Assembly: GCA_013002865.1 (NCBI GenBank)
Contig: JABDLU010000207.1
Span: 1 to 48,593, forward strand
Direction: 5' to 3'
Source: Acidimicrobiia bacterium
GTDB taxonomy: Bacteria; Actinomycetota; Acidimicrobiia; Spongiisociales; SHLN01
Length of the DNA: 48,593 bases
In this document: piece after piece, positions 3,297 through 45,116 of the stretch
Numbering within the stretch: the first letter of the stretch is position 1
Layout of the letters: every line of letters starts with the position of its first letter
Notes under the pieces: generated by a model
Seen by the model: the letters and a program-made list of their open reading frames with translations, nothing else
Told to the model about the DNA's origin: nothing
Database searches by the model: none
Translations under genes and position numbers: made by a program

Positions 3297-3378
3297 CCTC
3301 CCCTGCGAGCGCAGCGAGTGGGGGAGGCAAGGAGGGGGGTGGGCAACCATGCGGGTTGCTGAGCGCGTTCCTGTGCTC
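3297..3378 (-). repeat. Palindromic repeat element R1, copy 1
   Basis: cctcccctgcgagcgcagcgagtgggggaggcaaggaggggggtgggcaaccatgcgggttgctgagcgcgttcctgtgctc; near-identical at 11783-11864, related inverted copies at 26111-26535. Confidence 0.85.
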
Positions 3379-3387
3379 TTGAGTGAA

Positions 3388-3420
3388 GTTGCCAGTCGCA
3401 GGTTGCAGGTTGCAGGCCAG
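3388..3420. repeat. 7-bp-period degenerate tandem array (gttgcag type)
   Basis: gttgcca-gtcgcag-gttgcag-gttgcag-gcc. Confidence 0.8.
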
Positions 3421-3444
3421 AGGGAGTCCGGGCGTCGGGGGGTC

Positions 3445-3487
3445 GGGAACCCTTTGGGTTCCTTGGGAGTTGCTCCGCAACTCCATG
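3445..3487 (+). repeat. Double-hairpin repeat element R2, copy 1
   Basis: GGGAACCCTTTGGGTTCC + TTG + GGAGTTGCTCCGCAACTCC + ATG. Confidence 0.85.
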
Positions 3488-3492
3488 ACAAT

Positions 3493-3527
3493 CGGTGCCC
3501 GATGCCCGACGCCCGACGCCTGATGCC
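3493..3527. repeat. 7-bp tandem array (cgacgcc type), 5 units
   Basis: cggtgcc-cgatgcc-cgacgcc-cgacgcc-tgatgcc, exact 7-bp register. Confidence 0.88.
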
Positions 3528-3570
3528 GGGAACCCTTCCGGTTCCTTGGGAGTTGCTCCGCAACTCCATG
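3528..3570 (+). repeat. Double-hairpin repeat element R2, copy 2
   Basis: GGGAACCCTTCCGGTTCC + TTG + GGAGTTGCTCCGCAACTCC + ATG. Confidence 0.85.
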
Positions 3571-11864: not shown

Positions 11865-11889
11865 CATTTCGACGGCCAGAGAGTGTCTA

Positions 11890-12282: not shown

Positions 12283-12301
12283 GGGAGGAGGGTAACGGCC
12301 G

Positions 12302-12386
12302 GGCACCGGGCATCAGGCACCGGGCATCAGGCATCAGGCATCAGGCATCAGGCAGAGTTGCACGTTGCAAGTTCCAGGTTGCAAGC
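12302..12386. repeat. 7-bp tandem array (ggcatca type) running into gttgcaa-type units
   Basis: ggcaccg-ggcatca-ggcaccg-ggcatca x4-ggcagag, then gttgcac/gttgcaa/gttccag/gttgcaa. Confidence 0.9.
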
Positions 12387-12410: not shown

Positions 12411-12451
12411 TGGAGTTGCGGAGCAACTCCCAAGGAACCCGAAGGGTTCCC
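12411..12451 (-). repeat. Double-hairpin repeat element R2, copy 3 (inverted)
   Basis: tGGAGTTGCGGAGCAACTCCCAAGGAACCCGAAGGGTTCCC. Confidence 0.85.
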
Positions 12452-12485: not shown

Positions 12486-12575
12486 GGCGACTGGCGACCG
12501 GCTATCGGCTGTCGGTCAGAGGGTCCGCTGGGGTTTGGCCGTTGACCGGCGACCGGTGACCGGCGACCGGCGACC
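12486..12575. repeat. Paired 7-bp arrays flanking a GGTCAGAGGGTCCG...GGCC spacer
   Basis: ggcgact-ggcgacc-ggctatc-ggctgtc; spacer; gttgacc-ggcgacc-ggtgacc-ggcgacc-ggcgacc, ending at the erpA stop. Confidence 0.88.
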
Positions 12576-12895
12576 TAAGAGAAGCTGCTGCCGCAGCCGC
12601 AGGTCCTGGTGACGTTGGGGTTGTTGATCGCAAAGCCGGCGCCTTGCAGCCCATCCCGGTAGTCGACTTCGGCGCCTTCCAGGTGGGGCGCACTGGCGGA
12701 GTCGACGACCACGCGGACGCCGTCGAACTCAGCAACGGCATCGGAGGTGCCTACCTCGCCGTCGAAGAACATCTCGTACGAAAACCCCGAGCAGCCACCG
12801 GGCTTGACGGCAACCCGCAGCGCGAGCGACGTGTCGCCTTCCTCCTCGAGCAATGACTTGACCTTGGCGGCGGCGGGCGATGTGAGTGTCAGCAT
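12575..12895 (-). CDS. erpA: A-type Fe-S carrier / iron-sulfur insertion protein (ErpA/HesB)
   Basis: LRVAVKPGGCSGFSYEMFFDG...GAGFAINNPNVTRTCGCGSSFS with three conserved Cys. Confidence 0.88.
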   Translation of the reverse strand: MLTLTSPAAAKVKSLLEEEGDTSLALRVAVKPGGCSGFSYEMFFDGEVGTSDAVAEFDGVRVVVDSASAPHLEGAEVDYRDGLQGAGFAINNPNVTRTCGCGSSFS

Positions 12896-24604: not shown

Positions 24605-24680
24605 CAGCGGATCCTCCTCGTGTTAGCTGCGCCGACGTTACCGGCGAGAACGCGAATCTGCCAGGAAAAATAAGGAAGGG

Positions 24681-24771
24681 GTCGGTGGTCGGTGGTCAGT
24701 GGTCGGTGGTCAATGACCGGACGGGGAGGATCTGGTTCTGGCCGTTGACAGTCGACCGTTGACCGTTGACG
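24681..24771. repeat. Paired 7-bp arrays flanking a spacer with GGCC/TCTGG motif
   Basis: gtcggtg-gtcggtg-gtcagtg-gtcggtg-gtcaatg; spacer accggacggggaggatctggttctggcc; gttgaca-gtcgacc-gttgacc-gttgacg; ends 4 bp from the NfeD-like stop. Confidence 0.9.
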
Positions 24772-24774
24772 CGA

Positions 24775-26040
24775 TCAGGCGTCGCTTTCCACCGGATCCA
24801 CTTCGAGGATGAAGCCTTCGACGGCGGCGACGGTGACCGGGTCGCCGGCTTCGATGCCGGAGGCGCGGCGGGAGTTGGCTTTCCAGCGGGCACCGTCGAC
24901 GAGCACGACCCCTTCGGGAGCCACGGCAGTCTCGGCGGTACCGACCCGCCCGACGAGGTGCTGGCGACCGATGGTGGGGGTGGAGAACCGTGCGCGAACC
25001 ACCGTCGTCATGGCGAAGAGGAAGAACAACGCGATCGACGTGACGATGAGGGCGGCGCTCCACCACGCCATGGACAGCTGGGGCGGTTCGTAGACGAAGT
25101 AGCGGGCTCCGATCAGCATGGCGACCGTCCCGAGGATCGACGCGATTCGAAGCTGGATCCGCTGGAAGTCGAAGAGATAGAGCCCCAGCCCCAGGACCCC
25201 GAGGCCCACTGCCCACCAATTGACGGGCAGCACAGCGAGTCCGTAGCCACTCAACGCCAGCGTGAGCACGGCCACTGCTGCAGCCACACCCACCCCGGCG
25301 GCGTAGAACTCGAAGGCCGCGACAGACAGCCCCACCAGGAGGAACAGGTAGGCGGTGGCCGGCGACAGGGTCAAGCGGAGGGTGCGGTCGACGAAGCCTT
25401 GCTCGTGGAAGCGGGTGGTGATGGGACGCCGCTCCCCATCGTCGTCGAGGCGGGTGATCGCGATCTCGGTCTCGACGTCGTCGACCAGCACGGTAGAACC
25501 GTCGAGCGCCTGCACGATGTTGGTCAGCGCCGGTTGCACGCCGTCGACGACCCCCTCGATTGGCTCCTCGACGGTCGTCCGGCCTTCGATCAAACCGGAT
25601 GCCAGCAGGGCGGGCTCCGAACCATCGGCGGCGGGAAGCAGGCCGGTATCTCCGTGGCGGGGTGGATCGGCGGCGCCGATCTCGGCTCCGGGTGCCGCCA
25701 GGCCAATTGGGGCCAGGGCCAGGAGACGGACCGCGCCGCCGTAGGCGATAGCGGTCTCCGGGCCGACCCACACGGCCAGCGGGGCAGGCGGATCCTGAAC
25801 GATGCGGAGCAGCTCGCTCCAGCGGGCGGTCAAGGCCGCTGACGAGTCGAGCTGGACGATGATCAATTCGGAGGTGGGAGCGACGTCGGTGATGGTGGTG
25901 ATGGCGAAATCGATTGCCCGCTCGTCGAGCGGACCGCTCACTTTGATCACGTCGATGGCCCGCTCCGACTGGGCGCCGGCCGGCACCGCACTGATCACAA
26001 ACAGCGCACCACAAACCAGGACAACCAGACGTCGGAGCAT
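24775..26040 (-). CDS. NfeD-like membrane protein (ClpP-like N-terminus, TM region, OB domain)
   Basis: Signal peptide; IDVIKVSGPLDERAIDF; LAAPGAEIGAADPP; C-terminal VGRVGTAETAVAPEGVVLVDGARWKANSRRASGIEAGDPVTVAAVEGFILEVDP. Confidence 0.82.
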   Translation of the reverse strand: MLRRLVVLVCGALFVISAVPAGAQSERAIDVIKVSGPLDERAIDFAITTITDVAPTSELIIVQLDSSAALTARWSELLRIVQDPPAPLAVWVGPETAIAYGGAVRLLALAPIGLAAPGAEIGAADPPRHGDTGLLPAADGSEPALLASGLIEGRTTVEEPIEGVVDGVQPALTNIVQALDGSTVLVDDVETEIAITRLDDDGERRPITTRFHEQGFVDRTLRLTLSPATAYLFLLVGLSVAAFEFYAAGVGVAAAVAVLTLALSGYGLAVLPVNWWAVGLGVLGLGLYLFDFQRIQLRIASILGTVAMLIGARYFVYEPPQLSMAWWSAALIVTSIALFFLFAMTTVVRARFSTPTIGRQHLVGRVGTAETAVAPEGVVLVDGARWKANSRRASGIEAGDPVTVAAVEGFILEVDPVESDA

Positions 26041-26110
26041 CCCAGAATGTTACGGCGGCAAAGGGATTCGTGGGAGGGGGGGAGGTGGAACTTGGAACTC
26101 CAACCGATAG

Positions 26111-26251
26111 CACGGGAACGCGCTCTCACCCCCCTCCTAGCCTCCCCCACCGAAGGCGGGGGAGGAACCAGAAACGCCCGCCTCGCAAACGATGCCGAGA
26201 GGAATCACCAGTGGAGGCGGAGTGGGGCGGAGGGAACGACGCAGACAGGAG
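26111..26251 (+). repeat. R1-family element, tandem unit 1
   Basis: cacgggaacgcgctctcacccccctcctagcctcccccaccgaaggcgggggagg... about 141 bp. Confidence 0.85.
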
Positions 26252-26390
26252 CACGGGAACGCGCTTTCACCCCCCTCCTGGCCTCCCCCACTGCGTGGGG
26301 GAGGAAGAACAAACGCCGTGCTCGCAGACAATGCCGAGAACGATCACCGCTGGAGGCGGAGCTTGGCGGAGAGAACGGCCTAAACAAGAA
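26252..26390 (+). repeat. R1-family element, tandem unit 2
   Basis: cacgggaacgcgctttcacccccctcctggcctcccccactgcgtgggggagg... about 139 bp. Confidence 0.85.
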
Positions 26391-26535
26391 CACGGGAACG
26401 CGCCTAGCAACCCGCAGGGTTGCCCACCCCCCTCCTAGCCTCCCCCACCTTCGGCGGGGGAGGAACCTGAAACGCCTGCCTCTCAAACGATGCCGAGAAC
26501 GATCACTGTTGGAGGCGGAGCTTGGCGGTAGGCAC
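26391..26535 (+). repeat. R1-family element, tandem unit 3 (long form)
   Basis: cacgggaacgcgcctagcaacccgcagggttgcccacccccctcctagcctcccccaccttcggcgggggagg... Confidence 0.85.
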
Positions 26536-32592: not shown

Positions 32593-32653
32593 ACGATCCT
32601 CCTCGTTAACCCTGCTCGCCAGCGTAGCGACGACTTTCGCGGTCTGCAGAGCC

Positions 32654-32744
32654 GGTCGCCCGTCCCCCGTCCCCGGTCGCCCGTCCCCCGACGCCCGACG
32701 CCCGACGCCCGTCCCCCGTCGCCGGTCCCCCGACGCCCGTCGCC
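32654..32744. repeat. 7-bp tandem array, 13 consecutive in-register units
   Basis: ggtcgcc-cgtcccc-cgtcccc-ggtcgcc-cgtcccc-cgacgcc-cgacgcc-cgacgcc-cgtcccc-cgtcgcc-ggtcccc-cgacgcc-cgtcgcc. Confidence 0.95.
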
Positions 32745-32765
32745 CCCACTGCTGGGGACGGGGGT

Positions 32766-44307: not shown

Positions 44308-44622
44308 ATGAGCGACTATCCCGACATCCCGGACAGCACCGAAGGCATCGGAATCCCCTCCGGGGAGCCGCCCAAGGCACCGGCGAGGGACATCGCCTTT
44401 CCGTGGCGGCTGGTCATCGCCCTCACCGTCTTCGGGCTCATCGTGCTGTTCGCGCTGCAGAACACCGAGACCGTCGACGTCAAATTCATCGTGTGGGACT
44501 TCGGAATCCCGCTCATCGTCGTGATCACCGCCACCATGGTGCTTTCGGTCATCTTCGGTGACATGATCGATTGGTGGTGGCGCCGTCGGAAGCGCAAGCG
44601 GCGCGAGCTGGAAGAGGGATAA
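44308..44622 (+). CDS. LapA/DUF1049-like membrane protein
   Basis: IALTVFGLIVLFALQNTETVDVKFIVWDFGIPLIVVITATMVLSVIFG. Confidence 0.8.
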   Translation: MSDYPDIPDSTEGIGIPSGEPPKAPARDIAFPWRLVIALTVFGLIVLFALQNTETVDVKFIVWDFGIPLIVVITATMVLSVIFGDMIDWWWRRRKRKRRELEEG

Positions 44623-44626
44623 GTAG

Positions 44627-44691
44627 GTCGACGGTCGACTGTCGACTGTCGACGGCCAAAACCGTCCCCTGTCGGCTTTCGGCTTTCGGCC
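44627..44691. repeat. Paired 7-bp arrays flanking a GGCCAAAACCG spacer
   Basis: gtcgacg-gtcgact-gtcgact-gtcgacg; GCCAAAACCGTCCCCT; gtcggct-ttcggct-ttcggcc-AGAATCGG. Confidence 0.9.
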
Positions 44692-44705
44692 AGAATCGGA
44701 GTCAC

Positions 44706-45116
44706 GTGAGCGGCAGGCCTGATCTCTTGGAATTGTTGCGTGGGTTGGAGTTGCCGGGGGGCGATTATGCGGTGTTTGGGAGTGGGCCGTTGATCGTGCG
44801 GGGGGTGGTGGAGGCGACGAACGATCTCGACATCATCTGCCGGGGAGTCGTGTGGGAGCAGGTCCGATCACGGGGAACCGAGATGTGGTTCAGTGAGGGG
44901 AACCCGTATGTCGAGATGTTCGAGGGGCTGCTCACGTTCGGCACGACATGGAAGTACGGCGTCTTCGACCTCGATGTGCTGATCGACACGGCCGAGTGGA
45001 TCGACGGGCTCCCCTTCGTGCGGCTCGAGCACGTTGTGTCCTATAAGCGGGCGGCGGGCCGGCCCAAGGATCTCGCCCACCTGGAGGCAATGGCGGCGGC
45101 CGGCCTCACAGCTTGA
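44706..45116 (+). CDS. Nucleotidyltransferase-fold-like protein
   Basis: VSGRPDLLELLRGLELPGGDYAVFGSGPLIVRGVVEATNDLDIICRG...KYGVFDLDVLID; GTG start at 44706. Confidence 0.6.
   Translation: MSGRPDLLELLRGLELPGGDYAVFGSGPLIVRGVVEATNDLDIICRGVVWEQVRSRGTEMWFSEGNPYVEMFEGLLTFGTTWKYGVFDLDVLIDTAEWIDGLPFVRLEHVVSYKRAAGRPKDLAHLEAMAAAGLTA

Follow-up and report, generated by a model that had tools for sequence, protein, structure and literature searches.

Intergenic regions of an Acidimicrobiia genome carry heptanucleotide tandem arrays whose strand polarity points inward from the spacer edges, whatever the direction of the flanking genes, and some of which close with an in-phase degenerate unit, RGYCARA (GGCCAGA/GGCCAAA). 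Their period of 7, tandem structure and intergenic location place them among the intergenic heptanucleotide repeats (STRR / heptamer SSR) already known from cyanobacteria and xanthomonads. We read them, with a probability of about one half, as products of slippage-type expansion that extended inward from the spacer edges and that mostly serve as neutral spacer filler. The window, by which we mean the whole analysed stretch of 48,593 nucleotides (contig JABDLU010000207.1), belongs to a metagenome-assembled genome of 2.9 Mb in 224 contigs (G000, 89.8% complete; hereafter the home genome). Genome-wide counts were made on 1.02 Mb of its contigs (about a third), including ~0.98 Mb beyond the window, with genes called by a simple codon-usage gene finder that assigned ~91% of the DNA to coding sequence.

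The site that drew attention to these repeats is the 83-bp spacer downstream of a gene with a LapA domain (44308–44622, + strand; Pfam PF06305, 7.2e-9; orthologues in the related genomes G001 and G003). Two arrays had been claimed at 44627–44691, and two are indeed there, both on the + strand. The left one consists of GGTCGAC twice and TGTCGAC twice (44626–44653; sequence, TRF at period 7 and a period-7 scan), starts 4 bp past the LapA stop codon (44620–44622) and ends in the in-phase terminal unit GGCCAAA (44654–44660, +; sequence and genome-wide phase test). A short sequence with no assigned strand (44661–44666) lies between the arrays; treating the partial unit with which the right array opens as part of it widens the gap to 44661–44670, ~10 bp. 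Read in the RG frame, the right array comprises CCCTGTC, GGCTTTC and GGCTTTC, with a degenerate first unit (44667–44687, +; sequence, TRF and period-7 scan), and terminates in phase with GGCCAGA (44688–44694, +; sequence and phase test); in the other frame it reads TGTCGGC, TTTCGGC, TTTCGGC, the type of unit described earlier. The downstream gene (44706–45116, +, GTG start at 44706) had been called NTase-like; its orthologues in G001 and G003 (tblastn, 65-67% identity) establish it as a gene, its family stays putative, and the longer mechanical ORF (44571–45116) had no Pfam match.

The same layout was said to recur at 12486–12575 and 24681–24771, and broadly it does, except that the arrays at 24681 are inverted, on opposite strands, whereas both of those at 44627 are on the + strand. 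At the former site, a left array of GGTCGGT/GGTCAGT (24677–24712, +; sequence and period-7 scan) faces a right array of GGTCAAC/GGTCGAC (24744–24771, -; sequence and period-7 scan) that adjoins the stop codon of an NfeD gene at 24775 and has GGCCAGA as its in-phase terminal unit (24737–24743, -; motif count and phase check). Between ridA and an iscA-like gene (12575–12895), left arrays of GGCATCA/GGCACCG (12299–12356, +; TRF and period-7 scan) are followed by a right array of GGTCGCC (12543–12576, -; sequence and period-7 scan) that begins inside the TAG stop of the iscA-like gene. A further array, of GGTTGCA (3394–3421, +; period-7 scan and phase check), ends in an in-phase GGCCAGA (3415–3421); the GGCCAGA near 11875, also reported to flank a heptamer array, flanks just a weak period-14 repeat. 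Separately, a GTCGCCC/GTCCCCC array at 32651–32745 contains a 42-bp higher-order repeat, 89% identical, which suggests duplication of several units at a time.

Across the 1.02 Mb of the home genome, the scan returned 199 arrays at period 7 as opposed to 2-9 at control periods; the window alone held 13 period-7 arrays, with 0-3 at most non-multiple periods and the highest values at period 3 (8) and period 9 (5). Nearly all arrays (195 of 199) were intergenic, a density of ~190 intergenic heptamer arrays per Mb, and the spacers bearing them were long, with a median of 283 bp vs 58 bp. Arrays facing the 3' end of a gene started close to the stop codon, at a median distance of 9.5 bp (10 bp or less in 31 of 60, with several overlapping the stop), and those facing a 5' end lay a median of 75 bp away, a proximity and a distance that together look like selection sparing promoters and coding sequence. 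The commonest units, GGTCGCC, GGTCAGT, AGTTGCA, GGTCAAC and GGCATCA, have no G runs of 3, and hence lack G-quadruplex potential, for which we looked for runs of three or more G in the unit. Variants within arrays clustered in blocks, forming 77 runs vs 128 for random order, as local duplication predicts; this rules out independent degenerate synthesis of each unit.

The polarity of the arrays was scored with an orientation rule (GTC/ATCRG/GTTNC) that is strand-symmetric but was devised on the same data. Adjacent arrays within a spacer of the home genome were +,+ in 42 cases, +,- in 39, -,- in 27 and -,+ in a single case, and the independent contig set alone gave 11 +,- vs 1 -,+. The one exception (L155, 3061–3150) is built of CGGCCGA and CGGCCAC, units so nearly self-complementary that the orientation call there is uncertain. 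Arrays at spacer edges pointed inward rather than outward in 112 vs 42 cases (56+56 vs 23+19), and among all arrays no more than 60 bp from a gene edge a weaker rule with many exceptions was seen, 510:189 in the home genome and 238:124 in a Chloroflexi genome (G302). This Chloroflexi genome, which uses other units, provided a check on polarity that is independent of the orientation rule: it contained 23 inverted array pairs, and same-family comparisons of polarity agreed 43 times and disagreed in none. The GTC-based rule failed to orient most arrays in the Bacteroidales and Microcoleus samples, and the polarity counts cover the home and Chloroflexi genomes. Inward polarity was seen at convergent, co-directional and divergent gene pairs alike and so does not follow transcription; although the hairpin at 44625 is stronger on the coding strand (-31.5 vs -15.1), no consistent preference for the transcribed strand was apparent by eye in the spacers listed, which speaks against strand selection at the RNA level. 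A bias of this type has been described by Rehm et al. 2015 (PMC4692102) for single G-rich heptamers of Xanthomonas and Nostoc, which lie nearer the ORF on the repeats' 5' side whatever its orientation; our arrays show the same strand bias relative to the nearest gene edge. Polarity was thus already known, though unexplained, and what is new is its extension to many units and to further phyla. The rule that organises the arrays is strand polarity, which was absent from the earlier note.

We then turn to the terminal unit. With arrays oriented by unit content, RGYCARA stood at the 3' end of 42 of 198 arrays, vs ~2 expected from its frequency in the genome (~20-fold), and in 39 of these 42 it was in phase with the array, vs 6 expected; its reverse complement occurred at the 5' side of none and at the 3' side of 7. 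It is absent from about four fifths of arrays, and comes after differing units (GGTCRRY, RGTTSCA, GGCTATC). Relatives place still other units before it, namely AGTCCCA before AGCCAGA in G003 (L085) and AGTTCCA before AGTCAGA in G259 (L132). GGCCAGA itself was found 22 times in the window vs 10.4 expected, mostly away from arrays. The proposal of a composite element had named a lack of GGCCAGA enrichment beside arrays as the outcome that would count against it, and the ~20-fold excess of RGYCARA at array ends is on its side; of the "conserved core and variable arms" the conserved end-unit survives, but no core is conserved between the arms, as inter-array sequences differ. The phase relation in 39 of 42 cases rules out GGCCAGA as an independent core or spacer: the supposed core is the recurring inner last, degenerate repeat unit of the array.

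Several phyla yielded stretches in which three KGTCRRY units precede an in-phase GGCCARA; the 23 such stretches come from Acidimicrobiia, Phycisphaerae/Planctomycetaceae, Acidobacteriota, Bacteroidales (mostly gut), Flavihumibacter, Chloroflexi and Microcoleus. A given unit is lineage-restricted, since RGTTSCA-type arrays with the end-unit were present in 2 of 296 genomes of the class, with 38 matches in the home genome and 3 in the other. Orthologous junctions give these arrays a history. In G001 the orthologues of lapA and of its downstream gene abut, and in G003 their spacer is ~50 bp and contains just GCTGCCAGCTACCAGC; comparison of these sequences indicates that the lapA–NTase arrays arose between genes that abut in a relative, the relatives being too diverged from the home genome for the empty junction of G001 to reveal target-site duplications. 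At the iscA-ridA junction, the spacer is almost lacking in the family members G005, G006 and G007; in G001 it contains a CTAACAG/TTAACAG array that takes in the stop codon, in G003 AGTCCCA arrays and a partner that faces the opposite way, and in the home genome the GGTCGCC array that starts in the TAG stop. The heptamers at these junctions thus vary from lineage to lineage, which speaks against any single unit having a conserved, sequence-specific role. For the Chloroflexi genome, a search among its relatives returned matches rich in paralogues, which precluded empty-site comparison there. Two observations on other genomes are added: G259, of the same order and a different family, has long morphing arrays (L128/L130/L132) in which AAGTTCCA turns into GGTCTCA, with RGTCAGA ends, and in Microcoleus (L174, L175, L176 and L116) GATTTTA arrays open with TCAAT and close with ATTGA, often ATTGAAGA, possibly another end-unit.

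Several lines of evidence lead us to favour slippage-type expansion, namely the intergenic restriction, the inward polarity with its recurrence in Chloroflexi and its earlier description in Xanthomonas and Nostoc, the proximity to stop codons, the in-phase RGYCARA, the empty or nearly empty lapA–NTase spacer of relatives, the turnover of units at orthologous junctions and the independence of the arms in the home genome. Under this reading, a short seed would be extended by slippage-type, locally templated synthesis; repair or replication synthesis would run from each spacer edge to a central break, stall or hairpin tip, giving each arm its own inward-pointing strand; selection would act solely to remove arrays that invade genes or promoters; and arms of the Chloroflexi type, with a common unit, could also form long hairpins. 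The block pattern and the site history are seen directly in the data, and the link to inward synthesis is our inference. The choice of slippage-type extension also rests on the blockwise variants and on the gene complement of the genomes. No Y1 transposase (PF01797) was found in the home genome or in G002, from the same genus (89.8% and 88% complete, respectively), nor a reverse transcriptase in the home genome (89.8% complete), and a RAYT or reverse-transcriptase generator was accordingly rejected. Ku is present in the home genome and G002, but searches of eight further genomes with arrays did not find it, so that classical, Ku-dependent end joining cannot be the general route. Several observations weigh against slippage-type expansion: plain slippage predicts no single period, no inward polarity and no cross-phylum terminal unit, the Chloroflexi arms are inverted copies, and one -,+ exception exists.

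The main rival, which we consider rather unlikely, is that copies of a small inverted-repeat (foldback/MITE-like) element with heptamer-array arms were inserted one inside another, each new copy entering the loop of an older one and so giving the order +^n -^m. That order is what was observed, with one exception, and several spacers have unit families in common. The relation between arms tells the genomes apart. In G302, adjacent pairs were inverted copies in 24 of 32 cases vs 4.7±1.9 after shuffling, with a duplex energy of -45 vs -23±2, suggesting that hairpins or foldbacks form in that genome, and a Phycisphaerae spacer contains a clean inverted pair with an inner GGCCAGA (GTGGTCAGTGGTCAGTGGTCAGTGGCCAGA, 15 bp, then the inverted partner). 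In the home genome, on the other hand, the innermost arms are mismatched: the covariation of left and right units that had been proposed as a test was not found (similarity 4.07 vs 4.15 for shuffled pairs, p=0.67), and the duplex energy of the arms (RNA, G-U pairs allowed) was -26.7 vs -27.7 for swapped arms (p=0.71). This rival is also at odds with the different units that sister species have at the same junction and with the failure to find a Y1 transposase (the class of transposase searched for) or a reverse transcriptase in the home genome; it fits the Chloroflexi data better than those of the home genome.

The arrays could also function at the ends of genes as RNA or DNA hairpins, acting in transcription termination or in protection of mRNA 3' ends, a reading we hold improbable. 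Folds are strong, with z of -3.3 at 44625–44700 (-36.9 kcal/mol), -3.9 at 24677–24771, -14 for a Chloroflexi pair and -11 for the Phycisphaerae pair; the share of junctions with arrays (18/143 convergent, 38/616 co-directional, 14/143 divergent) can also be cited in its favour. However, pairing in the home genome is no better than that of swapped arms, and units that share GGTC/GACC pair with one another regardless of origin. No terminator-like site (GC-rich stem and T run) was found at 44500–44800, T-runs differed little in frequency between array spacers (17 of 70) and others (47 of 279), and arrays are located in front of genes and between divergent ones as well. Pairing, T-runs and placement thus do not support a terminator or hairpin function in the home genome; an Rfam search of the window returned a tRNA as its sole match. 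Least probable of all is that the arrays bind a sequence-specific protein (a nucleoid protein, a regulator or a translation factor), RGYCARA serving as the half-site at their boundary. This would suit the conserved end-unit and has a precedent in the post-transcriptional regulator proposed for the TAACTGA heptamers of Beggiatoaceae (PMC4679880), but it is hard to square with the many unit families of a single genome, with the change of unit at a given site between sister species and with the unrelated functions of the flanking genes examined.

The arrays resemble several described repeats, each in part. In the part of Rehm et al. 2015 considered here (PMC4692102), the repeats GGGNATC of Xanthomonas and GGGGA(T/C)T of Nostoc PCC 7120 are likewise of period 7, intergenic and occasionally in inverted pairs, but each of those genomes has a single G-rich unit, interpreted in terms of G-quadruplexes, whereas here units are many and mostly have no G runs; nor does that part report an end-unit such as the in-phase RGYCARA. 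The STRR heptanucleotides of Calothrix PCC 7601 are, like ours, tandem and mostly intergenic, and heptamers are the commonest class of long simple sequence repeats according to Mrazek 2007 (both as cited in PMC4692102 and PMC4679880); the passages of those two papers that treat them give no end-unit or polarity rule, both of which were found here. The TAACTGA direct repeats of Beggiatoaceae, Cyanobacteria and Bacteroidetes (PMC4679880) are also heptamer arrays with a patchy, phylum-wide spread resembling that of ours but, unlike ours, have a single unit and lie mostly just upstream of start codons. REP/BIME/REPIN sequences with RAYT (Y1) transposases are also small intergenic repeats in palindromic arrangement; ours differ from them in being period-7 tandem, and a Y1 transposase was not found in the home genome.

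Bacterial heptamer repeats have been known for a long time, but no mechanism for them has been agreed on. Any explanation must cover the inward polarity independent of gene direction, the in-phase end-unit in multiple phyla and the turnover of units in sister species, three regularities for which neither simple replication slippage nor regulatory binding sites suffice on their own. That phyla far apart share this layout suggests that heptamer arrays may be made in a common way. One could go as far as to suppose a widespread bacterial process of DNA synthesis, from Actinobacteriota to Bacteroidota and Cyanobacteria, that adds strand-polar heptamers to 3' ends meeting in intergenic regions, telomere-like at both sides of a break, and leaves head-to-head arrays often ending in RGYCARA; we regard this as a long shot. 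If some common machinery does underlie the three regularities, it would shape the DNA between genes in many phyla. A systematic survey of the end-unit and the polarity across phyla would be worthwhile.

Lastly, palindromes are dispersed among the arrays. An element of the form CCTCCCCC(hairpin)GGGGGAGG-CAAGGAGGGGGGTG-AGAGCGCGTTCCTGTGCTC occurs at 3329, 11815, 26109–26403 and many other loci; its AAGGAGGGGGGTG core has 33 copies in the 1.02 Mb, 26 of them within 250 bp of a heptamer array. Small palindromes also lie near arrays (3446–3570, 12412–12450 and many loci), those within 250 bp amounting to 9 of 9 for GGAGTTGC/GCAACTCC, 14 of 15 for GGAACCC/GGGTTCC and 32 of 38 for GCAACCC/GGGTTGC. As GCAACCC/GGGTTGC is found inside copies of the larger element, the small palindromes look nested.
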